A stretch of DNA of 31,828 nt from the IMG/VR virus record IMGVR_UViG_3300037344_000003, positions 1 through 31,828 of that record. One strand, 5' to 3'. Source of the stretch: a virus. Under the pieces are notes generated by a model. It was given only the letters and a program-made list of their open reading frames with translations. It was not told the DNA's origin and made no database searches. The position numbers and the translations under genes are program-made. This document shows positions 2,454-31,310 of this stretch, piece after piece (positions within the stretch are counted from its first letter, which is position 1; each line of letters begins with the position of its first letter).

Positions 2454-4721
2454 TCATTTTGACACCCTTCCTTCCTTCGCTGCGATCCAAATCAGCCCCT
2501 CATTCTGCACCATGTAGCCCATCGCGAACAGCGCCTCGATGGCCTGCGTATATGCCGAGCGAGCGTTCACGGATGTCATCTTGCCCTCGGCAAAGTCGCG
2601 CAGCTGGTCGGCAGGGATGCACCAAAATTGCCCGCTCTCAGGCCAGCCCGCGCCAGTTGGGTTGCTGTGTCCTCGGCCCTCGCTGCGCAGTTGCTTGAAC
2701 GCTTTGACAACGACTTTCTGGTTTGCACCCGTCGGGCGCTTTTGCGCGGTGTCGGCAGCGTCTTCATCGCTGGCCTTTGTTATCGTGCAGGTCGTCACGT
2801 CGTCGCCGTCTTCGTCCTGTCCCAGCGTGTGAACCTTGAGCGAGAACATGAACGGCGGCTGCGGCTCCAGATCGCGCTGCTTGGTGGCTGTGGCCGTGCG
2901 TATGGTGCCGTCAACTGCCAACTCGATCTCGGTGTCTGTCGCTGCCCTTAGACTGCTGTGGCCCCGTGCGCCCTTCGACGTGTCCTTGCCGCTGTGATGC
3001 ACTGTCATAATGTGTGCGCCAGTTGCCAGCCGCAGAACATCGACGTTCTGAATGTAGCTGCTCATGTCAACGCTGCCGTTCTCGTCGCCACCAGCCAGCG
3101 CGCGTGACAGTGTGTCTACCACGATCAGACACGGCTTTTGCCCGCAGGTCCGCTCGATGTCCGCGCACAGTTCCAGCAAGCCCTCGAGGTCCGCCGCTGG
3201 GTCCAGCAGGTTCACTGGCGACGGCCTGACGGCAAGCTGCACGTCGTCGATGCCGTACTGCTTGCGCAACGCCATTACGCGGTTGTTAAACGCATTGCCG
3301 CCTTCGGTTGCCAGATACAACACTGGCCCGCCGCGCGTCTTGCATCCCTGCCAATCCATTTTGGCCGCGACGCAGAACGCCATGTCGAGCGCGTAAAACG
3401 ATTTGCCGACGTTGCTCGGCCCATAGACGACCGACATTTGCCCAGCGCCCAACCAGTTTTTGACAAGGTACGCGGATTTCAGCATCGGCTTGGCGTCTTT
3501 GGCCCAGAAAATTTCATTCCGCTTTGCGCGTGATGTTGCCTCGCCTATCTGGAACACGGCGGGCGCTTCCACCTCGGCGGCCATTGTCATCGGTATGATG
3601 TCGAAGTCATCCAGATCATCGGCGGCAGGTTGATCGTGCTGGCTTGAGCCTTGCATGATGTTATCGCGGATGTCGTTGCGGCTCGGCTTAATCTCGGCCC
3701 CATATGCCCGCACTGCGTTGGTGATGTCGCCACCGTGTTCATAGAAGGCAAACAGGTCGAACGCGTCACCCCAGCAAAATTCCGCCGAGGCTGTGCCAAC
3801 GCCCGCAGCCAAGTCGCTGCCGGACATGCTGACCCAATGCGTTCCAAAGTCTTTCACGGGGTAACTGCCCGTTGTCGATTGCGGCGACTTGTAGCTGTCA
3901 GACTGCCCCTGCCGCTCATATCCGTACTGAATGAACAGGTCGGCGATTGTGTGCGTATCGTTAAACGCTTCAATGGGGTCAACATTATCTGGGAATTGCA
4001 GGCGCTTTTCTGCGCGGGCTGCAATGCGGCGGGCGCGATCCGCTGCGGCCTTTGCTTCGGCGATTTCTGCATTCTTTCGGCGGAATTCAACCTCGGCCCA
4101 GATTGTGCTGTCTTTTGCGACAAGGTAGCCCTCGCCGCGATTTTTGTCTGCGCTATAGAACAGCGGCGCGCCATTGTCGTCGCGCTTGGCTGGCGGCACG
4201 TTTGGTAGGTATATCGGCTGGCCAGAGCGAGCTAATGCCCCATCGGCGGCTATATTGTAGTCTCTGCCTAACATATCGAACAAAGCCAGCTGCGCATCCG
4301 CATATTCGCAACCTGTCAGCGGCTCTGCCAGCGGTATCAGCACCCGCCATTTTTTGTTATCTTCCGTTGCGCCCGCAGACGAATACGTCAGCGACGCTGC
4401 ATTGCATATTATATCGTCAACGGCGGATTGTAATGTATCAGCGTCAACATTGCCCTCGTCGATGTCGATTGCCAGCATGCAGTATGAACCGTTTTCACGC
4501 TGCGCTGCGTGGCTCCGGCCATCGTGCGCGCGGTAAGTTGAGGGAATGAAAAACGCGGCGTCGGCTTTTTCTGTGGACTGCGGTTCGTCAACCATTGCAG
4601 CGATTTCTCGCAGCGTGATGCCTTTGTATTCGGCTGTGTCATCGTGGATGCGGGTGTCTTTTGATCCGTGCGCTAATAGCATCTGCTGCTTGCTCACGCT
4701 GCTAATCTTTGATAACGTCAT
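2454..4721 (-). CDS. primase-helicase fusion protein (755 aa)
   Basis: Predicted replication protein joining a primase-like N-terminus to a RecA/RepA-type helicase ATPase. Residues 83-131 hold a DID acidic motif (86-88) and a WRVLIPL strand, as in archaeo-eukaryotic primase-polymerase folds. Residues about 260-345 resemble the region around a primase zinc domain (KSPQSTTGSYPVKDF, then GDAFDLFAFYEHGGD). The ATPase has Walker A GPSNVGKS (434-441), Walker B LIVVDTLS (532-539) and HHSGKD (575-580). The ATG at 4721 is preferred to upstream starts because AAAGG stands eight bases before it and the conserved part begins soon after; upstream codons run through the hairpin at 4766. It should prime and unwind phage DNA. 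The SSB-like gene lies upstream. Confidence 0.88.
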   Translation of the reverse strand: MTLSKISSVSKQQMLLAHGSKDTRIHDDTAEYKGITLREIAAMVDEPQSTEKADAAFFIPSTYRAHDGRSHAAQRENGSYCMLAIDIDEGNVDADTLQSAVDDIICNAASLTYSSAGATEDNKKWRVLIPLAEPLTGCEYADAQLALFDMLGRDYNIAADGALARSGQPIYLPNVPPAKRDDNGAPLFYSADKNRGEGYLVAKDSTIWAEVEFRRKNAEIAEAKAAADRARRIAARAEKRLQFPDNVDPIEAFNDTHTIADLFIQYGYERQGQSDSYKSPQSTTGSYPVKDFGTHWVSMSGSDLAAGVGTASAEFCWGDAFDLFAFYEHGGDITNAVRAYGAEIKPSRNDIRDNIMQGSSQHDQPAADDLDDFDIIPMTMAAEVEAPAVFQIGEATSRAKRNEIFWAKDAKPMLKSAYLVKNWLGAGQMSVVYGPSNVGKSFYALDMAFCVAAKMDWQGCKTRGGPVLYLATEGGNAFNNRVMALRKQYGIDDVQLAVRPSPVNLLDPAADLEGLLELCADIERTCGQKPCLIVVDTLSRALAGGDENGSVDMSSYIQNVDVLRLATGAHIMTVHHSGKDTSKGARGHSSLRAATDTEIELAVDGTIRTATATKQRDLEPQPPFMFSLKVHTLGQDEDGDDVTTCTITKASDEDAADTAQKRPTGANQKVVVKAFKQLRSEGRGHSNPTGAGWPESGQFWCIPADQLRDFAEGKMTSVNARSAYTQAIEALFAMGYMVQNEGLIWIAAKEGRVSK

Positions 4722-4765
4722 CTTATAGGCCTTTCTTTTGCATGTTTTGCCTGTTCTTTCCTGAA

Positions 4766-4800
4766 CCCCCGCAGCCGTATAGCTGCGGGGGTTTTGTTTT
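4766..4800 (+). terminator. 10-bp perfect hairpin with plus-strand U-tract
   Basis: CCCCCGCAGC (4766-4775), loop CGTATA, GCTGCGGGGG (4782-4791), then TTTTGTTTT. As an intrinsic terminator it works on the plus strand, yet the genes on both sides are minus. On the minus strand it follows the SSB-like stop and carries an A-tract on its 5' side only. Confidence 0.65.
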
Positions 4801-4803
4801 GGC

Positions 4804-5463
4804 CTAAATAAGCATGATCGGCGCAAATGGAATTTCATCATCCATCGGCGCTGGCCGCACCGCCTGCGGTAGAGATGCAAACGGGTCTGCCTCGCCAAAT
4901 TCGCCAAGATCGGGATCGGCAACTCTGCCAACTGGCGCAATGGTGTCAAAATCATCAAGCCCGCTGCCGCCTGTGACCGCCTCGATAACCTGCACAACAT
5001 CCAGCAACAGCGAGATGCCGCCTGCCCCGTTCGGATCAGTCACGGGAACCGCCGATACCCTGATCGTCCCTTTTGTCCCAGTCCACAGGCTGCCAACATC
5101 ATCAAACGGCATCTTGTCCCCATCGACTACCCTTGGCAGCGGGTTTTCCTCGCCCTTGCCGTTGACGCCGTTCCGCTTCGCTGAAAAGCTAAACGATCCG
5201 TCGTCAAGTTTCTTCATGCCAAAAACCTTTTCGAACGGCTCTTTGCGCCCGCAGCTTTCGTAGTGCGCTTTTAACTCTGCGTGCAGCTTGCCCGCGTCTG
5301 CCGCATCCATGCCCCAGCTGATGCTGTAGTTTGCGCCCTGTGCGCGCGGTGCGCACGCAATACTGCGTTTGTCGGCGGTGCTGAAGCGATATGTCTCAGC
5401 CAGTCGCGGAAATGCGAACGTCACGTTTCGCACCATGATTGTTTTGAAATCCGTATTTGCCAT
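4804..5463 (-). CDS. single-stranded DNA-binding protein, DDEIPF tail
   Basis: A 219-residue protein that fits a phage SSB of the T7 gp2.5 or DUF2815-like type. Residues about 10-165 look like an OB-fold with a charged middle (AKRNGVNGKGEENPLP). The rest is an acidic linker leading to DDEIPF at 208-213, close to the DDDIPF tail that bacterial SSB proteins use to recruit partners. Here six more residues (APIMLI) follow the tail, which is unusual. The ribosome binding site AAGGAG is strong. It lies 12 bases after the RecE-like exonuclease, the place often held by a single-strand annealing protein, so an annealing role is possible. Confidence 0.78.
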   Translation of the reverse strand: MANTDFKTIMVRNVTFAFPRLAETYRFSTADKRSIACAPRAQGANYSISWGMDAADAGKLHAELKAHYESCGRKEPFEKVFGMKKLDDGSFSFSAKRNGVNGKGEENPLPRVVDGDKMPFDDVGSLWTGTKGTIRVSAVPVTDPNGAGGISLLLDVVQVIEAVTGGSGLDDFDTIAPVGRVADPDLGEFGEADPFASLPQAVRPAPMDDEIPFAPIMLI

Positions 5464-5475
5464 TGTTGTCTCTCC

Positions 5476-6279
5476 TTAAAAGTCGTCAATTGAGGCTGCA
5501 TCTTGTGCCAGCCACGGTGGAATATCAACCGCGTTGATACCTGTTGAATAGCCAGTGTCCCAAACTTGGGTTTCATTGGCCGTCTTAATATCGCGCAGGG
5601 CCTTGTGCATTTGCGCATCTGCCCACTCGATATATTCTTTAGTCAGCTCACAGCAATTCACTGCAAACGGGGCTGTCTTTTCCACGAACGCGAATACGAA
5701 CCGCGTCGCCTTGTAGCCCGCATTCTGCATGACGTACATATAAAACGCAGCCTGAAGCGCGTAGTTATACTTGCGGATGTCAGCTTCCACGTCTCGCGGC
5801 GCACTCGACTGACACGTTTTGATGTCGTATATCACGCCAAGGTTTTCGTCGTAACTGTCTGGCCGACACTTGATTCCCATGCCCGTCATCGGACACTCAG
5901 CAAAAAATGACGCCTCGTTTATCGTGTCGGGTCCGGCCATTTTGCGCCCGACTGGATGAAATATCACGCTGTCGGCCACGTCGCGGGCGAGGTCATAGTC
6001 GCCAGCGGTCAGCAGTAGGTGGCCGTGCGCTTCGGCTTCTGCGAACGCTTCCGACCATTGCTTGCCGCGACGGTCAGCCCCGCCGCGCACGGTGCTTTCG
6101 CCGTTTTCAAGGCACATGTCATGGACAGCGGTTCCGATTGCCATCGCGGTTGTTGGCTTGAACGCGGCCCGATGCTTCCAGTGGGCAAGCGACTTGCTGT
6201 GAACAGCTTTCACATCCGACGATGATATATCCTCGGTCGCGTGATATTGCGCGTTCGACATTTTGTCTGCGGTTATCAT
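5476..6279 (-). CDS. RecE-like PD-(D/E)XK exonuclease (copy 1)
   Basis: A 267-residue nuclease resembling the catalytic domain of RecE (exonuclease VIII). Visible active-site residues are H53, E122, D141, D152 and K154 in YDIKT, with Q176 and Y180 further on. The 11-residue gap between the two Asp and the D-x-K step match RecE. It should degrade one strand of double-stranded DNA ends to feed strand annealing. The start overlaps the RuvC stop (ATGA), and the SSB-like gene follows. A second homologue with the same residues is encoded at 11743-12534 on the other strand; both begin with a TxxMSNxxYH segment. A later start at residue 7 is possible, but 6279 has an AAGGA site and the overlap. Confidence 0.9.
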   Translation of the reverse strand: MITADKMSNAQYHATEDISSSDVKAVHSKSLAHWKHRAAFKPTTAMAIGTAVHDMCLENGESTVRGGADRRGKQWSEAFAEAEAHGHLLLTAGDYDLARDVADSVIFHPVGRKMAGPDTINEASFFAECPMTGMGIKCRPDSYDENLGVIYDIKTCQSSAPRDVEADIRKYNYALQAAFYMYVMQNAGYKATRFVFAFVEKTAPFAVNCCELTKEYIEWADAQMHKALRDIKTANETQVWDTGYSTGINAVDIPPWLAQDAASIDDF

Positions 6280-6746
6280 ATCAGTTTTTCCTTTCCATAT
6301 AAGGCGATCAGGCAGGCTTCCGCTCTGCCATCATCTTTGACCCGCGCAAACTGCGGCGCGATCTGCGGGAACCGTTGCGATGCAACAGACCGTGATACAC
6401 CCTTGTCGCGGGATAGGCCAAAGTGGCCCTTCCAGCGCTGTGGCGTGACGTAGTGAACAGGCAAGCCCTGCGCTGCGATGGCCATCGCTATCGAACCTTT
6501 CTGTTCTCCAAATCGGAACGTAGATGACACGCCTTGACCCCTCATTGCATTGACCAACTCGATCACAGCAATGTGGGGCGTGTCGTCCTCGCGCTCCAGT
6601 ATGTCGAGAACGCCGTGCAGGTTCAGGATTGTTTTGCCTTTAGCTGACTTCATCACTGGCATATCGTGAACCTCGATCAAGCCCAGCGCGGGCCTGTAGA
6701 TTGAGATTGCGCCCGTGAAGCCAATGTCGATGCCGAATATGACCAT
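6276..6746 (-). CDS. ruvC: RuvC-like Holliday junction resolvase
   Basis: A 156-residue RNase-H-fold nuclease with the RuvC pattern: D7 in FGIDIGFTG, E63 in AVIELV, and D138/D139 before GRAEACLIALY. Length is close to bacterial RuvC (about 170). It should cut four-way junctions and branched replication intermediates before packaging. Start and stop overlap the genes on either side (TGATG with the RHH gene, ATGA with the exonuclease). The plus arm carries an unrelated resolvase fold at the same place in its cassette. Confidence 0.88.
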   Translation of the reverse strand: MVIFGIDIGFTGAISIYRPALGLIEVHDMPVMKSAKGKTILNLHGVLDILEREDDTPHIAVIELVNAMRGQGVSSTFRFGEQKGSIAMAIAAQGLPVHYVTPQRWKGHFGLSRDKGVSRSVASQRFPQIAPQFARVKDDGRAEACLIALYGKEKLI

Positions 6747-6874: not shown

Positions 6875-7012
6875 GGTCGTTCTCCTTTTGTGTATGGCAT
6901 CAATAGCGTATAAAAATAATATAGTAAAGATGCAAAATATATCTTTACTATATCGCAGACTGCCGTTAGAAAGGTCATACGAACAATTTAACAAGCAAAT
7001 AGGAAATACAAA
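6875..7012. promoter_or_regulatory. divergent control region between the two arms
   Basis: This AT-rich gap separates the first genes of the minus and plus arms and must hold both early promoters. On the minus strand TTGCAT, a 17-base spacer and TATACG make a weak promoter candidate whose spacer contains one arm of the palindrome at 6919-6953. No convincing plus-strand -35/-10 pair was found. Confidence 0.6.
6919..6953. promoter_or_regulatory. 13-bp perfect palindrome, probable operator
   Basis: ATATAGTAAAGAT (6919-6931) and ATCTTTACTATAT (6941-6953) are exact reverse complements with a nine-base spacer. Position in the divergent gap and the adjacent RHH gene point to an operator. The right arm alone recurs at 7566-7578. 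Confidence 0.7.
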
Positions 7013-7017
7013 ATGAC
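6931..7017 (+). repeat. 87-bp perfect direct repeat, copy 1 (leader of 7013 gene)
   Basis: This segment is identical to 7556-7642. It runs from the right operator half through the 5' leader and ends two bases past the ATG of the 163-aa gene. Confidence 0.95.
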
Positions 7018-7504: not shown

Positions 7505-7511
7505 CCCGAAC

Positions 7512-7527
7512 GGGGGCTTCGGCCCCC
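7512..7527 (+). terminator. C(UUCG)G hairpin in intergenic cassette 1
   Basis: GGGGGC-UUCG-GCCCCC is a six-pair stem with the extra-stable UUCG loop, eight bases after a stop codon. It is followed by CACCCAACCTAATCAAAGG and not by a U-tract, so it may protect the 3' end or tune read-through. Confidence 0.65.
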
Positions 7528-7555
7528 ACCCAACCTAATCAAAGGAAATACAAGC

Positions 7556-7642
7556 TGCAAAATATATCTTTACTATATCGCAGACTGCCGTTAGAAAGGT
7601 CATACGAACAATTTAACAAGCAAATAGGAAATACAAAATGAC
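7556..7642 (+). repeat. 87-bp perfect direct repeat, copy 2 (leader of 7638 gene)
   Basis: Identical to 6931-7017. It supplies the 58-aa gene with the same 5' leader, ribosome binding site and first codons, but only one half of the operator palindrome. Confidence 0.95.
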
Positions 7643-7814: not shown

Positions 7815-7821
7815 AAAAAAC

Positions 7822-7837
7822 GGGGGCTTCGGCCCCC
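7822..7837 (+). terminator. C(UUCG)G hairpin in intergenic cassette 2
   Basis: GGGGGC-UUCG-GCCCCC again, eight bases after the stop, followed by CACCCAGCCCAATCAAAAGG and the next ribosome binding site. No U-tract follows. Confidence 0.65.
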
Positions 7838-7865
7838 ACCCAGCCCAATCAAAAGGAAATACAAA

Positions 7866-8111: not shown

Positions 8112-8118
8112 CCCAAAC

Positions 8119-8135
8119 GGGGGCCACGCGCCCCC
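8119..8135 (+). terminator. hairpin in intergenic cassette 3, loop changed
   Basis: GGGGGC-CACGC-GCCCCC keeps the stem of the two earlier copies while the loop differs, which supports selection on the hairpin. It is followed by CACCCAACCTAATCAAAAGG. Confidence 0.65.
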
Positions 8136-8164
8136 ACCCAACCTAATCAAAAGGACACATTCAA

Positions 8165-8568: not shown

Positions 8569-9145
8569 TAATAACCAGCCAACAACCGAAACCGCGATTA
8601 CAATAACAACGCGCACACTCAGCGAAAGTTGCTTTGCTCTAGAGCATGGCACTGGCGAAAGTGTATTTGTCCCTGCGTCGGTATCAATTCGCGCAAACCT
8701 AAAAGTCGGCGACGTGTTGGTGGCGAACGTGATCCCAAACCCCGTCGAAAACAGCCGCGACCGCACGCCATTCATGGCCGTCCACGTCGCGCCATACGCA
8801 ATCACTGCCCACACATCAAAGCCGCCAACGATCACAGCCGAAAGCGCTGCCGAGGTTTCTGCGGATGACGCCCGCCAATTTACAAACAACCTGCTTATGG
8901 CTGGCGGATGCTGGAATAATCTGGACGTATTTTGTTCGCTTATGAATGACGAGAATGCGCGGCGAGACGACAACGCTGTGGCGTATGCCGCGATCGGCAA
9001 CGAGCTGCGCCGCATGTTTAGCTCTGACGTTGCTTCAAAGTTTACACTGTACCGCACTGGATCACAGACGCGCGCCAGCGCTGAGTGGTTTACCACGACG
9101 CCAGACCAGTGCGAGCCAATGGATTGGAGTGAAGAAGATGCTTAA
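8561..9145 (+). CDS. hypothetical protein with OB/cold-shock-like N-terminus (194 aa)
   Basis: A 194-residue protein starting MFDNNQPTTETAITITTRTL at 8561; longer in-frame extension would overlap the previous gene. Residues about 20-75 (GESVFVPASV, LKVGDVLVANVIPN, RTPFMAVHV) have the strand order of a cold-shock or S1-like OB fold, so nucleic-acid binding is possible. The C-terminal half is helical and ends acidic (DWSEEDA). It sits upstream of a winged-helix-like gene in the accessory arm. Family assignment is uncertain. Confidence 0.7.
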   Translation: MFDNNQPTTETAITITTRTLSESCFALEHGTGESVFVPASVSIRANLKVGDVLVANVIPNPVENSRDRTPFMAVHVAPYAITAHTSKPPTITAESAAEVSADDARQFTNNLLMAGGCWNNLDVFCSLMNDENARRDDNAVAYAAIGNELRRMFSSDVASKFTLYRTGSQTRASAEWFTTTPDQCEPMDWSEEDA

Positions 9146-9431
9146 TAATCACAAGGCAAAAGGTCCAGCCCCGAAAACGCGCCCGCACACGACACTGCGC
9201 AAACTGCAACAGCAGAACCGCGAGTTTCTGACCATCGGTTCGCTTGGAACGGACGTGGCTTGCAAATTGCCCACCGCAGTGGCGGAATGGCTGATTGCTG
9301 AAACGCTCAAGCTGCCAGCGGTGGGCGGCGCGCGCTTGCCATCCGTTGCGAGTTTGATTGCGCTGCTGTGCATCGACGCTTACCACGACGATCTGGAGGA
9401 ACGCATGGCATCGAAAGGAAAGCGCAGATGA
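9138..9431 (+). CDS. hypothetical protein (97 aa), 3' end duplicated downstream
   Basis: A 97-residue basic protein starting MLNNHKAKGPAPKTRPHTTL, overlapping the previous gene by eight bases. The basic N-terminus and a later helix pair (LPSVASLIALLCIDAYHDD) could bind nucleic acid, but no family is recognised. Its last 33 codons are duplicated at 13148-13248 without a start codon. Its stop overlaps the winged-helix-like gene (ATGA). Confidence 0.72.
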   Translation: MLNNHKAKGPAPKTRPHTTLRKLQQQNREFLTIGSLGTDVACKLPTAVAEWLIAETLKLPAVGGARLPSVASLIALLCIDAYHDDLEERMASKGKRR

Positions 9432-9820
9432 GTGCTAAATTGGATATAATCACGGCCAACGCATTCAAGTTGACGTCGATGGCAACGGCAAACGAGGCAC
9501 ACATCGGGCGCGTAATCCGCCGCCATGAATTGGCAGACGAACACCGCCCCCGCATGCCAAAAACGCCAGACAGGACGGAGGTTGAGCGTCAGGGCTTGCA
9601 GCGGGTCGCAGATGTCGAGGTGATAAAGTTTCTGCGCGCATGCCCGAAGGGCATATCCACTATGCGTGTAATCCAAGACGGGCTGGTTGGCACGGTTCGG
9701 CCGGCCAGCGTTCAAAACGCCCTGCGCAATCAAATGTCGGTTGGCGTTATCCGCAAGCACAGCTCTAGCACGGGCAACCGAAACTGGTACGAGCTGACGG
9801 ACAAGGGGCGCCGATCGTGA
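9331..9820 (+). repeat. diverged direct repeat A, copy 1
   Basis: About 490 bp matching 13148-13640 at an offset of 3817 bases. It holds the last third of the 97-aa gene and all of the winged-helix-like gene. The copies are clearly homologous but diverged, so the duplication is not recent. Confidence 0.9.
9428..9820 (+). CDS. winged-helix-like DNA-binding protein (copy 1)
   Basis: A 130-residue protein. The C-terminal half (VIKFLRACPKGISTMRVIQD, then SVQNALRN and NRNWYELTDKGRRS) reads as a winged helix of the MarR/ArsR-like kind: helix, recognition helix, and a beta wing ending in the familiar YELTDKGR. The N-terminal half is helical and basic (HIGRVIRRHELADEH). The paralogue at 13245-13640 is about three-quarters identical by eye and keeps the wing exactly. 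It is probably a regulator of the accessory arm. The Mom-like gene follows with a GTGA overlap. Confidence 0.72.
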   Translation: MSAKLDIITANAFKLTSMATANEAHIGRVIRRHELADEHRPRMPKTPDRTEVERQGLQRVADVEVIKFLRACPKGISTMRVIQDGLVGTVRPASVQNALRNQMSVGVIRKHSSSTGNRNWYELTDKGRRS

Positions 9821-10422
9821 GCAAGGATCAGTTTACAATTTCAGCCATAAGTAAGGCCGAGGCAGCATTGCTTTTGAACAAATTTCACTATCTGACGGGG
9901 ATTTCAAAGGGGTTTAAATCTGGAATAAACTTTGGCCTATTTATTGGGGGCGAGGTCGTCGGCGCTTGCATATTCACGGGGTTCCCTGTGCCAGAGTTGG
10001 CGGCGGGGGCGTTCGGGCTGCCGAGGTCGGAGCAGCGTGGCTTATTCGAATTATCACGCCTAGTCCTACGGCCAGACATACAGGCGACGGAGCATAATGT
10101 GGCAAGCTGGTTTGTCAGCCGCTGCCTGAAAATGCTAAAGGCGGACCACTCACCGCGAGCTGTCTTATCGTATGCAGACGATGAGCATCACCACGGCACT
10201 GTGTACGCAGCGTGCAATTTCACATATTTCGGTATGGCCGCCGAGAAGAAAGATTTTTGGTTCAAACAGCCAAATGGTGACTTTATTAAGCACTCGCGGG
10301 GGAGGATAGCGGGGAGGGAAGGCGAGTGGCGACCGCGCAGCAGAAAGCACAGATTTATGGTTGTGTTTGATAAGGCGCTGGACGTCAAGTGGCCAAGCGA
10401 GAGGTGGAGGCCGAGAGCTTAA
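9817..10422 (+). CDS. mom: Mom-like DNA modification protein (GNAT fold)
   Basis: A 201-residue protein that resembles phage Mu Mom, which makes an acetamido-type modification on adenine and hides DNA from restriction enzymes. Supporting segments are NKFHYLTG (21-28), a glycine-rich strand (GLFIGGEVVGACIF), ELSRLVL (78-84), an acyl-CoA-binding-like helix (HNVASWFVSRCLKML), LSYADDEHHHG (117-127) and VYAACNFTYFG (129-139). A basic tail follows. The start is GTG, coupled to the winged-helix-like stop with no ribosome binding site of its own, so expression is likely low and dependent on the gene before it. Another GNAT activity cannot be ruled out. Confidence 0.78.
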   Translation: MSKDQFTISAISKAEAALLLNKFHYLTGISKGFKSGINFGLFIGGEVVGACIFTGFPVPELAAGAFGLPRSEQRGLFELSRLVLRPDIQATEHNVASWFVSRCLKMLKADHSPRAVLSYADDEHHHGTVYAACNFTYFGMAAEKKDFWFKQPNGDFIKHSRGRIAGREGEWRPRSRKHRFMVVFDKALDVKWPSERWRPRA

Positions 10423-10479
10423 TGATGACGCGAAAGAAGCCGAGGCATATGCTGCTGAAATGGAAGGAGGTGTCAACTG

Positions 10480-10629
10480 ATGGCTGACAGATCACACATG
10501 AGCAAAAGCTGCACTTGCTCGCGCAAAGACGCACCTGACGGACACCGCTGGCACGATCCAGAATGTCCGGTTCACAACAATAATGAAGGAGATCGTGTGG
10601 GGCGGGCGGGCTTAGAAATCGGACTGTAG
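10480..10629 (+). CDS. small Cys/His protein (49 aa), possible zinc binder
   Basis: A 49-residue gene with a strong GGAGG site. Its first 32 residues hold CTC, HRWH and ECPVH, enough ligands for a zinc knuckle. It follows the Mom-like gene. In Mu a zinc protein (Com) controls mom translation, but this protein shows no similarity to Com that I can see, so that role is only a thought. The last 12 codons fall inside the 87-nt repeated element at 10597, so the protein end and an RNA structure share bases. Confidence 0.6.
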   Translation: MADRSHMSKSCTCSRKDAPDGHRWHDPECPVHNNNEGDRVGRAGLEIGL

Positions 10630-10683
10630 CGCAGTAACCAGCAAGCGCACCAACAACAACCTAAGTTGAAATATTCGCCCCAC
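10597..10683 (+). ncRNA. candidate structured RNA B, copy 1 (tRNA 5'-half-like)
   Basis: An 87-nt element closed by GTGGGGCG at its start and CGCCCCAC at its end, an exact eight-pair stem. Nucleotides 24-52 read like the 5' half of a bacterial tRNA: CGGACTG, TA, then GCGC, a 12-nt loop and GCGC, the layout of acceptor strand, U8-A9 and D-arm. The loop lacks the usual GG. A CAAC/GTTG hairpin follows, but no anticodon arm or T-arm is present. Copy 2 at 14033 has the same length and differs at four positions, two of them in the last hairpin loop. Confidence 0.45.
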
Positions 10684-10806
10684 TGGCAATCAATATCACC
10701 GGCGGCGTGGAGGGAAAGCCAAAAGTTGAAAGATCACACAAAGATTGCGCAGCACTTGCGCTAAGATAGCACAGGTGCCACACTGGCAAAACATATTGGA
10801 GACAGA
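10684..10806 (+). other. non-coding leader before the plus-arm RHH gene
   Basis: No gene is seen here. It contains GCGCA-GCACT-TGCGC (a five-pair inverted repeat near 10745-10760) that could be an operator or small hairpin. No clear promoter is visible. It probably holds control sites for the second recombination cassette. Confidence 0.4.
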
Positions 10807-10968
10807 ATGATGGAAAATAACACGAAACAATTGGGCGCACGTATCCGCACCGAGGTGCTGGACTCACTGAGGGCGCTGTCTAAAAAGAAGCGCATCAGCA
10901 TGGCCGTGCTGACCGAGCAGGCGATTATCGGGCTACTCGAGGACAACGGCGTCGAGGTCAGCATCTAA
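10807..10968 (+). CDS. ribbon-helix-helix regulator (53 aa)
   Basis: A 53-residue Arc/CopG-like protein: strand (LGARIRTEV), helix (LDSLRALSKKK), turn (RISMA), helix (VLTEQAIIGLLEDNG). GGAG stands five bases before the first of two ATG codons. It opens the second recombination cassette, and its stop shares one base with the resolvase start (TAATG), the same arrangement as the 42-aa RHH gene and RuvC in the minus arm. It probably represses its own operon. Confidence 0.8.
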   Translation: MMENNTKQLGARIRTEVLDSLRALSKKKRISMAVLTEQAIIGLLEDNGVEVSI

Positions 10969-11357
10969 TGGCTACCAATGGTCGCAACAAAGGTGCATCG
11001 TTTGAGCGTGACATCGCCAAGATGCTGCACGACGAACTGGGCATCTCGTTTAAGCGCGATTTGGAGCAATATCGCGAGGGCGGCCACGGCGACTTGATTC
11101 CGTCCGATCCTGCTTTTCCGTTTACATTGGAGTTAAAGCGGTACGCTGACGGGCCGATAGGCGGCCAGAAGGCTTGGTGGCAGCAAACGTGCGTCGCAGC
11201 AAGGCGCGAAGGCAAATACCCTGCGCTGATCTACCGATACGACCGCAAGCCGATCCGTTGCGTCGTTCCAATGGACCCAAACCACTGGCAAGAGGACGGA
11301 CATGTGATTGAAATGGATTTCGAGGCGTTCTGCTATTTAGTAAGGGAGACAATGTGA
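10968..11357 (+). CDS. PD-(D/E)XK Holliday-junction-resolvase-like nuclease
   Basis: A 129-residue nuclease with the RecU/Hjc-type layout: KGASFERDIAKML with the first Glu near residue 13, then GGHGDLIPSD with the key Asp, then FTLELKRY with the E-x-K pair. A short helix and strand follow (KAWWQQTCVAARREGK, then PALIYRYD). Length suits phage resolvases. It takes the place that RuvC has in the minus-arm cassette. The reaction would be cleavage of branched DNA. Assignment to a particular resolvase family is uncertain. Confidence 0.78.
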   Translation: MATNGRNKGASFERDIAKMLHDELGISFKRDLEQYREGGHGDLIPSDPAFPFTLELKRYADGPIGGQKAWWQQTCVAARREGKYPALIYRYDRKPIRCVVPMDPNHWQEDGHVIEMDFEAFCYLVRETM

Positions 11358-11743
11358 TGAAAGACTATAGGGCAAGCCAACGCAGTGTTGAGGTTGGATA
11401 TAAGACAAGATGGGACGAAATTGCAGACCTAGCAAAGAAGCTGGCAAAAACAGAAGACCTGTCGATTTGGACCGGCGGAGAGAAATTTGACAGCGTTGAA
11501 GAGTATGACGCATATGCGTACTATTTGGGCATTATGGACGCCATGCGCGACATGTCGGTTTGGGTTAAGTTGGATGGCGGCAAGATCACGCCAAATGTGT
11601 TTTTCTCAATGCCAGACTTCTGCATCAATGCCAACCCAGAGTGCGTACACTGGGAAGGCCCATTTGGGGATCATTTGAAGCCAGTCAATGTTGACGAGGA
11701 CGAGGGCGAGGACACATTTACGATCACGCTGGAGTATGAATAA
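11357..11743 (+). CDS. hypothetical acidic protein (128 aa)
   Basis: A 128-residue acidic protein between the resolvase and exonuclease genes, overlapping or touching both (TGATG at its start, TAATG at its end). The ATG at 11357 is chosen over a GTG one codon earlier. Helical N-terminus (TRWDEIADLAKKLAKTEDL), central aromatic region (AYAYYLGIMDAMRDMSVW) and a very acidic end (VDEDEGEDTFTITLEYE). No family is recognised. The acidic, DNA-like surface could suit a partner or inhibitor of a DNA-binding protein. Confidence 0.72.
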   Translation: MKDYRASQRSVEVGYKTRWDEIADLAKKLAKTEDLSIWTGGEKFDSVEEYDAYAYYLGIMDAMRDMSVWVKLDGGKITPNVFFSMPDFCINANPECVHWEGPFGDHLKPVNVDEDEGEDTFTITLEYE

Positions 11744-12534
11744 TGTCTATTAACTACACGATGAGCAACGAGGAATACCACTTGTCGGACTCCCTGTCCG
11801 CGTCCGGTGCCAAGACAATTGCGCAGAAGTCGCTGGCCGATTTCAAGTATGGCGAGCGCAAGCACAGCAACGCATTTGACGTCGGCACTGCAGCCCACAC
11901 GCTCACATTTGAACCGCACCTGTCTGGTTCGGTGTGGTGCGGCGCAGAACACCGGCGCGGCAAGGCGTGGACCGACCACAAGGCCGAAGCCGAAGAGGCT
12001 GGCGCGTTGCTACTCACTGAGGGCGACTACAAAATCGCCGTGGCGATGGCCAACGCGGTGCGATCCAACAAGGCCGCAGCGTCGCTGCTGTCGGGTGACT
12101 TGGTTTGCGAGGCGTCAATATTTGCCCGCGACGACATCCACGACGTTGACCTGCGGTGCCGGCCCGACGGCTGGCGCAGAGACATCGGCGCGCTGATAGA
12201 TTTGAAGACAACAATCGCGCCCGATCCGGCGGGATTTAGCAAGCAGTGCGCGCAGTTTGGCTACCATATTCAGGACGCATTCTATCGCCGCGTCATGGCG
12301 TTGGAGGGTTTAGAGATTGACCGCTTCATATTCATCACGGTAGGCAAGGAGGCACCGCACCACGTCGGTTGCTACGAATTAGACTGGTCATCGCTCGCAG
12401 AGGGCGACGCCGCAACAGAATACGCGCTGGGCAAATACGCCGAAGCGCGTAAAACGGGCGTCTGGGATTACGGCTTTGGCGAATTGCAGACGATCCAAAT
12501 ACCAAGCTGGTCATTCCAGCATTCGCAGCCGTAA
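11743..12534 (+). CDS. RecE-like PD-(D/E)XK exonuclease (copy 2)
   Basis: A 263-residue homologue of the exonuclease at 5476-6279. H52, E123, D142, D153 and K155 (LIDLKTT), Q177 and Y181 line up one for one with the other copy, so both look active. The two share the MSNxxYH start, the R-R-G-K segment near residue 72 and the VWDYG/VWDTG end. Divergence is high, so this is an old paralogue or an independent acquisition. It should resect double-stranded ends. The SSB-like gene starts 38 bases downstream with an AAGGAG site. Confidence 0.9.
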   Translation: MSINYTMSNEEYHLSDSLSASGAKTIAQKSLADFKYGERKHSNAFDVGTAAHTLTFEPHLSGSVWCGAEHRRGKAWTDHKAEAEEAGALLLTEGDYKIAVAMANAVRSNKAAASLLSGDLVCEASIFARDDIHDVDLRCRPDGWRRDIGALIDLKTTIAPDPAGFSKQCAQFGYHIQDAFYRRVMALEGLEIDRFIFITVGKEAPHHVGCYELDWSSLAEGDAATEYALGKYAEARKTGVWDYGFGELQTIQIPSWSFQHSQP

Positions 12535-12572
12535 CTGGCTAACATTAGGCACACAACGTCAAGGAGACACAC

Positions 12573-13139
12573 ATGCCAATTTCATTCGGTGAGACATCAG
12601 ACAGCTCGGGCGCATACGTTCGGGTCAACCTCCCACAAAACCGCTGGACCCTAAACGCCGGCGCAGACCCGCAGACTATCGACATGGTCAAGGGCATCGC
12701 CATCGACATCAAGAACGTAAAATTCGGGTGGCTCAAAATCGCCGTGGGAATGCGCGACTGGCAGGAGTGGCCCGCGCCGTCACAGCCAACGGCAAAGCCG
12801 CAGGAACTCGACGCCGAAGGAAAACTTGCATATAAGCAGGGTTTCGACGTGGATTGCTGGATGGCTGACGGCACGCCAGCACAATTCAGCAACAACAGCT
12901 ACGGCACCGGCCAGTTTATCGCAAAGCTGTATAACAATGCAGAAAATGCGCCGGAGTTTAATCAGGGTCTGATTCCAGTGGTCAGCGTAACGTCATCGAC
13001 GCCGGTGGTGGTCGGAAAAGGGACTTCATACGATCTGGGCTTCACAATCGTAAAGTGGATCAAGGCCCCAGTCGAGGGTGACGCGCCAGCAGCTCCAGCT
13101 CCGGCAGCCGCACAGTCAGACGACGCGTTCGGCTTCTAA
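12573..13139 (+). CDS. SSB-like or annealing protein with acidic-aromatic tail
   Basis: A 188-residue protein. The N-terminal 150 residues are beta-rich (YVRVNLPQNRWTLNAG, FGWLKIAVGMRDWQEW, TSYDLGFTIVKWIK) and fit an OB-like ssDNA-binding fold. An Ala/Pro linker then leads to SDDAFGF, a tail of the SSB type for partner binding. It is not visibly related to the other SSB-like protein at 4804-5463. Position directly behind a RecE-like exonuclease is where phages usually encode the annealing protein (RecT, Beta or Erf), and none of those is recognised here. So it may be an SSB or a new type of annealing protein. Confidence 0.65.
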   Translation: MPISFGETSDSSGAYVRVNLPQNRWTLNAGADPQTIDMVKGIAIDIKNVKFGWLKIAVGMRDWQEWPAPSQPTAKPQELDAEGKLAYKQGFDVDCWMADGTPAQFSNNSYGTGQFIAKLYNNAENAPEFNQGLIPVVSVTSSTPVVVGKGTSYDLGFTIVKWIKAPVEGDAPAAPAPAAAQSDDAFGF

Positions 13140-13147
13140 GCACACGC

Positions 13148-13248
13148 CGCGCTTGCCATCCGTTGCAAGTTTGATCGCGCTGCTGTGCATCGACGCTTAC
13201 CACGACGATCTGGAAGAGCGCATGGCATCGAAAGGGAAACGCAGATGA
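13148..13248 (+). pseudogene. start-less 3' remnant of the 97-aa gene
   Basis: The last 32 or so codons of the gene at 9138-9431 are present, in frame and ending at the same TGA, but the 5' two-thirds and start codon are missing. The differences from the full copy in these codons that I can see are all synonymous. The stop still overlaps the start of the winged-helix-like gene that follows. Confidence 0.75.
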
Positions 13249-13640
13249 GTTCTAAATTGGACGTAATCACAGACAACGCATTCAAGTTGGCGTCGATGGC
13301 CACTGCAAACGAGGGTCACATTGCGAGGGTCATCCGCCGCCACGAACTTGCAGACGGCCACCGCAGGCTGTTGCCTTCATCGCCTGACCGATCCGAACTT
13401 GAGCGACAATCGGTCCAGCGCGTCGCCGAAGCCGCCGTGCTAAAATTCCTGCGGACGTGCAAAGACGGCATTTCAACGCAGCGCGCTATGCAGGACGCCT
13501 TGGTCGGCATCATCCGCCCAGCGTCGGTTCAGAACGCTTTGCGCAATCTAAACGGGGCCGCTGGCTTTATCCGCAAGCACGTTTCATCAACAGGCAATCG
13601 CAACTGGTATGAACTGACAGACAAGGGCCGCAGATCATGA
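13245..13640 (+). CDS. winged-helix-like DNA-binding protein (copy 2)
   Basis: A 131-residue paralogue of the protein at 9428-9820. The N-terminal helices and the C-terminal wing (NRNWYELTDKGRRS) are nearly identical; the middle has drifted (for example LPSSPDRSELERQ against MPKTPDRTEVERQ). It keeps a full reading frame, so both regulators are probably made. They may bind overlapping operators or form mixed dimers. It overlaps the zinc-finger gene that follows (ATGA). Confidence 0.72.
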   Translation: MSSKLDVITDNAFKLASMATANEGHIARVIRRHELADGHRRLLPSSPDRSELERQSVQRVAEAAVLKFLRTCKDGISTQRAMQDALVGIIRPASVQNALRNLNGAAGFIRKHVSSTGNRNWYELTDKGRRS

Positions 13641-13813
13641 GCAAGAAACGCAGTTTCCGTTGCCCCGAATGCTGGCGCTGCTATTCAAACGCGGCAGCCG
13701 TAGATCGGCACCGCACAAAAATGGATGGCCGCTGCATCGACAGCGCGCCCGTCTACGTTGTTGACAGGATTAAACACGAACGGGCAAAGATTGCCGCAGG
13801 AGATGACCAATGA
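13637..13813 (+). CDS. small zinc-finger protein (58 aa)
   Basis: A 58-residue protein with a C2HC-type finger: C9 and C12 (CPEC), a tyrosine and hydrophobic core (CYSNAAAVDRH), H25 and C33. A charged helix follows (RIKHERAKIAAGDDQ). It starts at the point in repeat A where the Mom-like gene starts in the other copy, and the two proteins share their first three residues (MSK). It may bind nucleic acid. Both ends overlap neighbours by four bases (ATGA), which supports translation. Confidence 0.7.
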   Translation: MSKKRSFRCPECWRCYSNAAAVDRHRTKMDGRCIDSAPVYVVDRIKHERAKIAAGDDQ

Positions 13814-14028
13814 CCACATTCTTCACAATATTATTGATCCATATCGGCGCTACAACGTACACGGTTACGCTGCCGTCGCAGGCGGAATGCTCGGATGCGC
13901 TGCTGATTGTCAGCGATGCGCGCCACGAACTGTCAGCAATGGGCGACGGGGGCGAGGTCTGGGCGCAATGCCACCGAACAAATCTTTTGTCAGCGTCCAT
14001 GCGGCCCCGTGCGCGAGGTGACTTGTGA
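13810..14028 (+). CDS. small hypothetical protein, possible signal peptide (72 aa)
   Basis: A 72-residue protein whose start (MTTFFTILLIHIGATTYTVT) resembles a short signal peptide or membrane anchor, with two cysteines later (AEC and AQC) and a basic end (SMRPRARGDL). GGAG lies before the ATG, which overlaps the zinc-finger stop. It may be exported to the periplasm. No family is recognised. Its stop overlaps the first bases of the second B repeat. Confidence 0.65.
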   Translation: MTTFFTILLIHIGATTYTVTLPSQAECSDALLIVSDARHELSAMGDGGEVWAQCHRTNLLSASMRPRARGDL

Positions 14029-14032
14029 TCGT

Positions 14033-14119
14033 GTGGGGCGGGCGGGCTTAGAAAACGGACTGTAGCGCAGTAACCAGCAAGCGCACCAACATCAACCAAG
14101 GTTGAAATATTCGCCCCAC
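14033..14119 (+). ncRNA. candidate structured RNA B, copy 2 (tRNA 5'-half-like)
   Basis: Same 87-nt length as the element at 10597-10683, with exact closing stem GTGGGGCG/CGCCCCAC and identical D-arm-like core. The homology extends about six bases further upstream. Differences at two positions fall in the loop of the CAAC/GTTG hairpin and leave the stem intact. No protein gene with a good ribosome binding site uses this copy, which favours a function as RNA or DNA site. Confidence 0.45.
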
Positions 14120-14161
14120 TTCGACCGTATAACAACAACGCAAAATGAGGAACAGCACAAA

Positions 14162-14437
14162 ATGGACAGATCAACAGTTTTAAAGCAAGCCGAGCAATGC
14201 GTCACCCATGATCGCGCCGCGACACATGGCGACGCAGAAGACAGCTTCGCCAGCATCGCAGCGCTGTGGGAATGGTGGATGATCCACCGCGACGACGGCC
14301 CGCTGGACGCATACGATGTGGCAATGATGATGTCGTTGTTCAAGCACGCCCGCGCAGCGTCAAACAAAGAACACAGCGACAACTTTGTGGATGCGTGTGG
14401 ATATCTGGCATTGGCATCAGAAATGACCTACAGCTAA
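14162..14437 (+). CDS. DUF6378-like phage protein (91 aa)
   Basis: A 91-residue helical protein with GAGGAAC before the ATG at 14162. The layout is that of a small domain common in phages (DUF6378-like): RAATHGDAEDSFASIAALW, then AYDVAMMMSLFKHARAAS, then DNFVDACGYLALA. The repeated His/Asp/Glu pairs resemble an all-alpha MazG-like nucleotide-hydrolase scaffold, but activity is unknown. It is the last gene of the plus arm and its end overlaps the end of the oppositely directed nuclease gene by 21 bases. Confidence 0.75.
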   Translation: MDRSTVLKQAEQCVTHDRAATHGDAEDSFASIAALWEWWMIHRDDGPLDAYDVAMMMSLFKHARAASNKEHSDNFVDACGYLALASEMTYS

Positions 14438-29792: not shown

Positions 29793-31310
29793 TTATTTTT
29801 GCAGTCTGAAATCTGGATCATCCCAAGGCGAAACGGCTGGCGCTGCGTCACCCATGCCCTCAACGCCAAGCGCCATCGCCAATGCGACAAGCCCGTCGAT
29901 CCTGCCAACAGATTTTGATTTTGTCAGCTTGCGATTACCCGCCGGATCGCGTTCGGCCACTGCGTTTGCTGCGCACATATTCAAAACAGGGTTGCCGCCA
30001 TGCCGCAGCTTACGATCCGCGACCAGTCGTTCCAGCTTATCAACTGCGGGTGCCATATCTTTGAAGCCCTGCCCGAACGGCTGCATTGGTATCTGAACGC
30101 CGAGCGCGTCAAGTTCGCGCGTGAAGTCGTTGATGCGCCAACGGTCATAGGCCAGCATCGTCAGATCAAAGTCGCTTGATGCCTCCGCAACGGCCATCGC
30201 GATGACGGCAGGGACAATGACGGGGCCATCAATTAACGTGATGAAGCCCTGATCCGCCCAAATGTTATAAGGCACTTTGTCTTCTTTGGCGCGTTCGCGA
30301 ATGCCGTCGCGAGGCATAAAGAACTGCGACTGGATGTCGTAGCCTTCGCCATTCGGGAACGCCAAAACAAGCGCGGTCAAATCTCGGCTCGATGATAAAT
30401 CAAGCCCAGCAAAACACGACATGCCGCCGCTGATTTCGGGCGCGTCAGAATTTGCCGACCACTCGCCACGGTTCAAGAACGGGCTGGTCGCCTCGATGCG
30501 CTGGTTTAAAAACAGCCAGCGAAAACTGTTTTCTTTCGCGGGCAATCTGTCGGCCTGCTTTGCAAAGTCTTCGATGTCTTTCAAGCTGCGAAACACGCCC
30601 AGCGCAGGGTTTGCAATTTTCCACGCGGCGCGATCCATCACTTCGCAATCCTCCGGCGCGGTGTAAACGTGGCTCACGATCCGTCTGTCTTTTGCGTTCC
30701 TTGCGTCGTCTAGCCATATCGAAAACAAGTCGCCATCGGTTGCGGCCTGCGTTGAAATTGCAATCAACAGCGGGTCATCGTGCGCGCCCTGCGCCGTCTC
30801 GATGGCTTCAACAAATGCATCAGTCGGCCCGCGCACCTGCCCTACCTCGTCCAAGATTGCCAAGACAGGCGACAGCCCGTGCGCAGTTCCGGCCTCCGCG
30901 CTAATTGCTTTGTATTCGACGGCCATTGGAATACCGACAAGCATTTTCTGACTTGGCACAATGCGAACAATATTTGACAATTCCGGCGACAGGCGAACCA
31001 TCTTTTCAGCCAGCTTAAACACCAACGCCGCTTGATCCCGCGACCGCGCGCCCGATGTTATCTGGCTATTCTGCCGAGCCTCGGGGCCGACCAGATGCGC
31101 CAACAGGATTGCGGCAATCAGCGCGCTCTTGCCGTTTTTTCTTCCTACGCTTAAATAGGCGCGGCTTGTCCCTTTTTTATTATCGTAAACATCCAAGATA
31201 AATTTTTTCTGAAACGGCATCAAAACAAGCGGCTTGCCAACCAGCTTGCCCTCCGGCACGGGACAAAACCTCTCGATAAATGCAATGACTTTTTCGCCGC
31301 GTGTTCTCAT
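29793..31310 (-). CDS. terminase large subunit (505 aa)
   Basis: Packaging motor and nuclease of the HK97/Terminase_1 type. Walker A GRKNGKS (56-62) and Walker B VLAILDE (149-155) form the ATPase; STQAATDGDLF around 187-196 is the coupling motif. The C-terminal RNase-H-like nuclease has D304 in FAGLDLSSSRD, and a later Asp in GRIDGLVALAMALG. The start overlaps the TerS stop (ATGA). Together with P27-type TerS and an HNH gene this suggests cos-type ends. Confidence 0.94.
   Translation of the reverse strand: MRTRGEKVIAFIERFCPVPEGKLVGKPLVLMPFQKKFILDVYDNKKGTSRAYLSVGRKNGKSALIAAILLAHLVGPEARQNSQITSGARSRDQAALVFKLAEKMVRLSPELSNIVRIVPSQKMLVGIPMAVEYKAISAEAGTAHGLSPVLAILDEVGQVRGPTDAFVEAIETAQGAHDDPLLIAISTQAATDGDLFSIWLDDARNAKDRRIVSHVYTAPEDCEVMDRAAWKIANPALGVFRSLKDIEDFAKQADRLPAKENSFRWLFLNQRIEATSPFLNRGEWSANSDAPEISGGMSCFAGLDLSSSRDLTALVLAFPNGEGYDIQSQFFMPRDGIRERAKEDKVPYNIWADQGFITLIDGPVIVPAVIAMAVAEASSDFDLTMLAYDRWRINDFTRELDALGVQIPMQPFGQGFKDMAPAVDKLERLVADRKLRHGGNPVLNMCAANAVAERDPAGNRKLTKSKSVGRIDGLVALAMALGVEGMGDAAPAVSPWDDPDFRLQK

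Follow-up and report, generated by a model that had tools for sequence, protein, structure and literature searches.

Two probable versions of one cargo locus, with shared repeats at their edges, in a roseophage-like virus genome

The linear virus record IMGVR_UViG_3300037344_000003 (31,828 bp, called here the window and analysed at its full length) contains two pairs of direct repeats, A and B, which follow each other twice in the same order and enclose different small genes each time: a Mom-like gene and a 49-amino-acid (aa) open reading frame (ORF), p49, in unit 1, and a zinc-finger-like gene, ZnF, and a 72-aa gene, p72, in unit 2. Here we argue that the two units are, with a high degree of confidence, diverged versions of one cargo locus, brought together by foreign DNA that a roseophage-like virus acquired. 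As part of the same reading, and judging from sequence comparison, the locus would very probably be a place of small-gene exchange among related viruses, with the repeats as the common sequences that border each exchange.

The two copies of A (A1, 9331-9820; A2, 13148-13640; both on the plus strand) align over 497 columns with 75.9% identity (E 1e-101 in blastn). A previous sequence-only reading of the window had reported both repeat pairs, the coordinates of A and the doubled A-then-B order, all of which hold. Its single offset of 3817 for A applies to the left end, the right end being at 3820 because of a 3-nucleotide (nt) indel. Identity is uneven along the repeat: it reaches 92-96% in the first 100 nt and 88% in the next 50 nt, falls to ~62-68% past 9530, and the longest identical run common to both copies is 38 nt. 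The repeat spans more than one gene, since it opens with ~100 nt from the 3′ end of a 97-aa gene, called 'up' (9138-9431, plus strand; no Pfam match and no function assigned), followed by a whole 130-aa gene (9428-9820, plus strand, in A1; 13245-13640 in A2). The 'up' gene is complete before A1, and before A2 only its last ~100 nt remain. This truncated copy differs from the full gene at 6 of 99 nt, and all six changes are synonymous, so that the divergence accumulated within a working gene and not in a pseudogene. The A1 product is probably a winged-helix DNA-binding protein, on the basis of PadR matches below the cut-off (17.4 bits against 27); a model of A built by AlphaFold from six sequences was poor (predicted local distance difference test, pLDDT, 45).

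Repeat B comprises 94 nt, at 10591-10684 and 14027-14120, with 95.7% identity and an offset of 3436; the earlier reading had the pair and the offset right, and its 87 nt fell short of the measured extent. Within it lies a 91-nt, stem-enclosed element (B1, 10593-10683; B2, 14029-14119; plus strand), delimited by the repeat, the fold and a model in the case of B1, and by the repeat and the model in that of B2. It is non-coding except where p49 (10480-10629, plus strand) reads into B1 for its last 13 codons, stop included. The genes that the sequence-only reading had placed inside the units were also found there. The Mom-like gene (201 aa, 9817-10422, plus strand) belongs to its family by a Pfam score well above the curated cut-off (PF25680, 79.8 against 27.1 bits; phrog_1384, E 2e-27), and the zinc-finger-like gene (58 aa, 13637-13813, plus strand) has its best Pfam match, Phage_zn_bind_3, at 20.3 bits, below the cut-off of 27. 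The stop codon of p72 (13810-14028, plus strand) abuts B2, and a DUF6378 gene, g14162 (14162-14437, plus strand; PF19905, 94.4 bits), starts 42 nt after it.

The A gene was found in six other viral contigs, with one copy each in the stretch examined, and always followed by ZnF; no relative was detected in the genome_contigs set or in the phage collection. In all counts, the records L001 and L002 (the window itself) and L054 and L059-L062 (duplicates of other records) were left out. The most informative relative is L007, a record of 35.7 kb with the order g8251 - g8562 - up - A - ZnF - p72 - another small gene - B - g14162 - g14417; it thus has both flanks of the window around a single A-to-B unit, without the insert, and provides the comparison with a one-unit phage that the sequence-only reading had proposed. 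The order in L008 is the same, except that p49 replaces p72 and B is broken, while L005, which starts inside A and is 93-95% identical to unit 2 of the window, continues with ZnF - p72 - two small genes - B - g14162. L005 and L008 likewise show a single unit each within the length covered by their contigs; L009, L010 and L011 contain A and ZnF, and no B. The 'up' homologues of L007 and L008 stand at the same place, with 84-86% aa identity. Altogether, relatives present a single locus with the order up - A - small cargo genes - B - g14162, in which different small genes occupy the interval between A and B, and in this sense the earlier idea of a swapped interior was well founded. A and B occur twice here and once in L007, as around an insertion flanked by direct repeats.

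The descent of the A copies points in the same direction. A2 is 99% identical in aa and 95.5% in nt to the A of L005, against 73% and 71% to A1; in turn, A1 shares 79-80% of its aa with the A of L007 and L008. Each copy is thus closer to homologues in other phages than to its partner in the window, which is the outcome that the sequence-only reading had named as refuting its proposal, and contrary to what copies duplicated in place, and hence mutual nearest relatives, would show. Synonymous divergence (dS) is 1.33 between A1 and A2, 0.147 between A2 and L005, and 0.65 between A1 and L007. A tree of the A genes, in which L009 stands for L009 and L010 (identical A genes) and for L011 (38 matching codons), joins A2 with L005 (support 100/99), and the best tree forced to hold an A1+A2 clade is rejected by the approximately unbiased (AU) test (p-AU 0.0001, or 0.00002 without the first 24 codons). 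Furthermore, windows of 60 nt along A1 have 0.88-0.97 identity to A2 up to 9423, whereas those at 9453-9543 have 0.88-0.92 to L007 and 0.57-0.83 to A2, and beyond them A1 is distant from both; A1 is therefore itself a mosaic, whose affinity switches at about 9450.

The stretch between the units has a near-identical relative elsewhere: window positions 10754-13152 are 97% identical to L012. This stretch encodes, on the plus strand, what we call module 2: a ribbon-helix-helix (RHH, Arc-like) regulator (10807-10968; phrog_3180, E 1e-5), a Holliday-junction resolvase (10968-11357; phrog_244, E 1e-18; 54% to genes of the Roseobacter phages CRP-811/821), a 129-aa gene with no function assigned (11354-11743; no PHROGs match, 98.7% nt identity to L012), the DUF3799 exonuclease exo2 (11743-12534; PF12684, 86.5 bits; phrog_412, exonuclease VIII, E 1.5e-68) and ssb2 (12573-13139). 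The latter is a probable single-stranded DNA-binding protein (SSB), from its place between exonuclease and primase in L012 and from a weak likeness to the OB/gp32-core fold (the best Foldseek match to an SSB has E 0.1; the RB69 gp32 core aligns with Z 5.0 and a root-mean-square deviation of 5.5 over 124 residues). After ssb2, L012 continues with a primase/helicase gene unlike anything at that position of the window, and the similarity stops at a junction at 13148-13160. There, window and L012 run together through CACACGCCGCGC and then part, and the 'up' gene reads ...GGCGCGCGC at the matching place; it follows that ~5 nt (CGCGC) fit both parents, the plus strand at 13140-13160 being L012-like up to CGCGC and continuing as the 'up' of the other lineage. 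The RHH gene is preceded by a leader, segment P (10684-10806, plus strand), whose first ~106 nt also lie in L008 between the broken B and g14162, where the RHH gene is absent; as a guess, this remnant could be the footprint of an insert gained and then lost.

The borders of B complete the picture. There are six intact copies (two in the window and one each in L003, L004, L005 and L007), 91-98% identical, and L003 keeps its copy among far-diverged neighbours (p72 homologue 52% and g14162 homologue 42% in aa). Three upstream contexts were seen, all ending at the same nucleotide before TCGTG: p49 in B1, L003 and the broken B of L008; p72 in B2 and L004; and CATAACATTTGAAA in L005 and L007. Downstream, a g14162-type gene starts 42, 42, 42 and 44 nt on in B2, L005, L007 and L003, respectively, and TGGCAAT... 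follows B1 and L004. Both p49 and p72 are found with both downstream types, a pattern expected from crossovers in B, and a conserved B is thus joined to unlike neighbours on either side, as a boundary sequence would be. Since the affinity of A1 switches near 9450 and the unlike neighbours of B meet it at one exact nucleotide, A and B look like recombination anchors. In the same vein, the p49 stretch of L003 is 98% identical to that of L008 over 104 nt, the two phages being otherwise far apart, which suggests recent traffic. No exact match to a 21-mer of B was found in genome_contigs.

How could such an arrangement have been assembled? A donor stretch composed of the tail of A1, Mom, p49, B1 and RHH - resolvase - exo2 - ssb2, with its last part from an L012-like phage, would have been placed before a second, L005-like copy of the locus, formed by the end of 'up', A2, ZnF, p72 and B2. 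The two parental lineages would have been joined by phage recombination during co-infection; the joins at A and B would be homologous or homeologous, and that at 13148-13160 based on microhomology. The outcome would be a phage with two recombination modules. The lambda Red system efficiently recombines genes that are 22% diverged (PMC2327257), and this makes A (76%) and B (96%) plausible substrates, the divergence being like that which joins inside A require. That work, however, concerns lambda Red plus Gam in E. coli, while here we have a DUF3799/exonuclease VIII-like enzyme and an SSB of predicted activity. Module 2 could be lost again if the A copies recombined with each other (-3817 bp), or if the B copies did (-3436 bp). 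The former is the deletion of Mom and the recombination cassette anticipated by the sequence-only reading; it stands as a prediction, no such shortened form of this phage having been seen, and the order of its product (A, then ZnF-p72-B) is that of L007 and L005. The B route (96% over 94 nt), which that reading did not name, would be equally good.

Other origins have to be weighed against this one. The sequence-only reading had proposed an old tandem duplication of the A-B unit within the lineage, with the interior of one copy, or of both, replaced later. The doubled A-then-B order, the 96% identity of the B copies and the first ~120 nt of A, where the two copies resemble each other (94% over 99 nt) more than they resemble L007/L008 (about 75%), would all agree with it; nevertheless, the tree test rejects the clade that it requires, the dS of A2 to L005 is nine times below that of A2 to A1, relatives with a single unit exist, and the likeness of the left ends is explained by the switch inside A1, all of which renders a duplication very improbable. 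Slightly less so, though still improbable, is a chimera created during assembly from at least two phage genomes that occurred together. This is a metagenomic contig that joins stretches found in different contigs elsewhere, and its joint at 13140-13170 has no match elsewhere. Assembly k-mers are usually longer than shared runs of 38 or 5 nt, and such are the runs available, at most 38 nt between the A copies and ~5 nt at the 13148-13160 joint; moreover, the P segment of L008, beside a broken B and without RHH, suggests that a P-type insert occurs naturally at this place. Least credible of all, and highly improbable, is that B is a mobile element resembling a miniature inverted-repeat transposable element and that the stretch between its copies travelled with them as one composite element. 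The complementary 8-bp ends of B, its sharp borders and its differing neighbours would fit, but by eye none of the six intact copies has a target-site duplication, four of the six precede the g14162 family at starts 42, 42, 42 and 44 nt away, no locus outside the window has two B copies, and the imported module 2 ends at ssb2 instead of at B.

The acquisition of foreign DNA by a virus with this locus has difficulties of its own. L005 begins inside A, so that its sequence upstream of A is unseen, and L012 begins at window position 10754, leaving the left edge of the imported stretch out of sight. A 22-mer across the right junction has no match in the other viral contigs. The insert has its foreign relative in L012 (97%), but the part formed by Mom, p49 and B1 is without such a donor, the relatives of Mom being at 57-62%, and may come from a source other than that of module 2. 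Finally, the downstream likeness between L004 and B1 amounts to 14 of the first 20 nt only (2 of 20,000 random 20-mers of the window do as well).

Besides module 2, the window carries a resident recombination set on the minus strand, module 1 (2454-6746; PHROGs and Pfam), with a RuvC-like resolvase (6276-6746), an exonuclease, exo1 (5476-6279), a Gp2.5-like SSB (4804-5463) and a primase/helicase (2454-5000). The phage thus possesses two modules, each with a resolvase, an exonuclease and an SSB, that of module 2 being probable. The exonucleases are only distantly related, because exo1 is 35% identical to the exo2 of L012, itself 99% identical to that of the window. Among 28 distinct related records, possibly fragments in some cases, that were queried with one exonuclease, 22 gave a match (5 of 11 in one set and 19 of 19 in another, two records being in both), exactly one in each of the 22. 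In the phage collection, exo2 matches 674 places in 673 records and exo1 553 places in 552 records. Two resolvase-exonuclease-SSB sets in one phage are rare in what was checked.

The preservation of B raises the question of whether it does more than mark a boundary. Every copy fits the same plan, in which an outer stem of 8 bp (GUGGGGCG/CGCCCCAC) closes the element and there are two hairpins, a long internal one and a second that is short; the proposed RNA would also have a conserved UCGU in front. The fold z-scores of the two window copies are -1.85 and -2.75. None of the 25 pairs covaries among the six near-identical copies, which are too alike to show covariation. A search of 55 sources with a model of B, R1, retrieved one diverged full-length candidate, at L037:4887-4975 on the minus strand (23.3 bits, E 0.0035 in 567,665 bases, 57-59% identity), which folds on its own into the same three-helix plan and lies ~62 nt from a g14417 homologue in the same relative orientation. 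When it is added, double changes keep 4 of the 25 pairs in an alignment fitted to the structure; in that same structure-fitted alignment, none of 500 shuffles reaches as many, and none of the slid structures does. The candidate sits in a convergent intergenic region, so that its active strand is uncertain, and a strong stem with a T run stands beside it (L037:4980-5040).

Further R1 matches scored 19.9 (L047), 16.8 (L042) and 11.7 bits (L008). Two of these were dismissed as members of B, L042 because its reverse strand starts with the same letters, as a 14-bp palindrome does, and L047 because it is without most of the internal hairpin; that the unrelated L047 scores only 3.4 bits below L037 speaks against the L037 candidate. 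So does the outcome in 54 records, where no members beyond L037 were found; the five CRP isolates have none. A script looking for TCGTG plus the 8-bp stem gave 13 distinct matches, most of them B copies or chance, compared with 0-18 (mean 3.65) for 40 random prefixes, a result that proves little. Rfam has no match in the window at the gathering score and three weak ones at a relaxed threshold. The broken B of L008 (1740-1930) keeps its first ~22 nt and a CAACAACAACCTGAGTTGA piece, with ~180 nt of different sequence in place of the middle. Five sigma-70 promoters were found where 5.0 are expected, which makes them uninformative, and 13 terminators where 11.3 are. As an explanation, a leader of g14162 only was discarded, for it fits four of the six intact copies and not B1 or L004, and the L037 candidate faces a convergent gene; as a role of B it is still possible. 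An RNA role is plausible but unproven, and B may be an undescribed structured RNA. More specifically, we entertain, as a tentative and rather unlikely proposal, a marine-phage structured RNA with two jobs, as a cis element of the early transcript and as homology for cargo swaps.

The closest precedent is found in mycobacteriophage LRRHood, whose segment with genes 43-46, of 1.35 kb, is flanked by 29-bp direct repeats present once in relatives (PMC3029335). The likeness is in extra DNA flanked by direct repeats that are single elsewhere; in the window, however, the repeats are long and diverged (A, 76%), there is a nested pair B, and part of the insert has a 97% relative and brings a second recombination module. 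The same source also discusses short conserved boundary sequences between phage modules (PMC3029335). B resembles these in being short and near-identical with unlike neighbours joined on both sides, and departs from them in its 91 nt, its strong structure and the position of four of six intact copies just upstream of DUF6378-type genes; these features indicate that B probably has a function of its own besides that of a boundary. The original work on boundary sequences between modules was done on lambdoid phages. The put RNA of phage HK022, likewise a short element with structure in the early transcript of a phage (PMC9378689), offers an analogy only, as B lies far down the operon and antitermination by it would be hypothetical.

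With regard to the rest of the genome, the Roseobacter phages CRP-811/821/823/831/406, of the CRP-822-type group (PMC12629253), share with the window the leftward primase - SSB - exonuclease operon. Four of these five phages also have the rightward run of small genes that ends at a g14417 homologue, CRP-406 giving no g14417 match. They differ in having a single place of exonuclease match each and in that neither A nor B was found in them. The replication genes of the window resemble those of CRP-822-type roseophages, whereas its terminase (29793-31310) has its closest matches in Rhizobium phage 16-3 and HK97-like phages (56-57%), so the backbone is a mosaic too. No paper was found on this repeat pair, on B or on double recombination modules in such phages, judging by titles and the openings of abstracts, which is no proof of absence.

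Some further observations concern the cargo genes. Between Mom and p49 there is a 68-nt scar (10423-10490, plus strand) that is 100% identical by blastn to L005:824-891, where its counterpart is the end of one cargo gene and the start of the next. Comparing L005:824-1070 with L007:9511-9550, L007 is without the ~65-aa gene that precedes B in L005, and the edges share GGCATA, so that a deletion by microhomology is suggested in this cargo region. A Mom-like gene (62% to that of the window) stands among small genes in L055:2718-4678, where 3303-3488 and 3485-3700 resemble, by eye, the 65-aa and p72 cargo genes; this suggests that in other phages, too, Mom is carried in a cargo operon of this type. 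Upstream, a 91-nt repeat (6927-7017 and 7552-7642, 99% identical) forms the leader of a different small gene in each copy, and three related stem-loops GGGGGC...GCCCCC (7509-7548, 7819-7858, 8117-8156) come after successive small genes, as though every gene formed a cassette together with a leader and a stem-loop of its own. Repeats of this kind also occur in L007.

That phages form mosaics by exchange at short stretches of common sequence is already known; the element B may be new. What the window offers is an unusually legible snapshot of a phage mosaic, in which part of the insert has a near-identical relative, both anchors are visible and relatives with one unit are available for comparison. 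Module 2 could be an unfinished replacement of one module by another, or it could be cargo, directed for instance at host defences that detect SSB or exonuclease. If B were indeed kept for a cis-acting job, it would thereby constitute a durable exchange point, one that let a phage become diploid for recombination genes, and a selected RNA of this kind would reveal why some short sequences are maintained as points of exchange.

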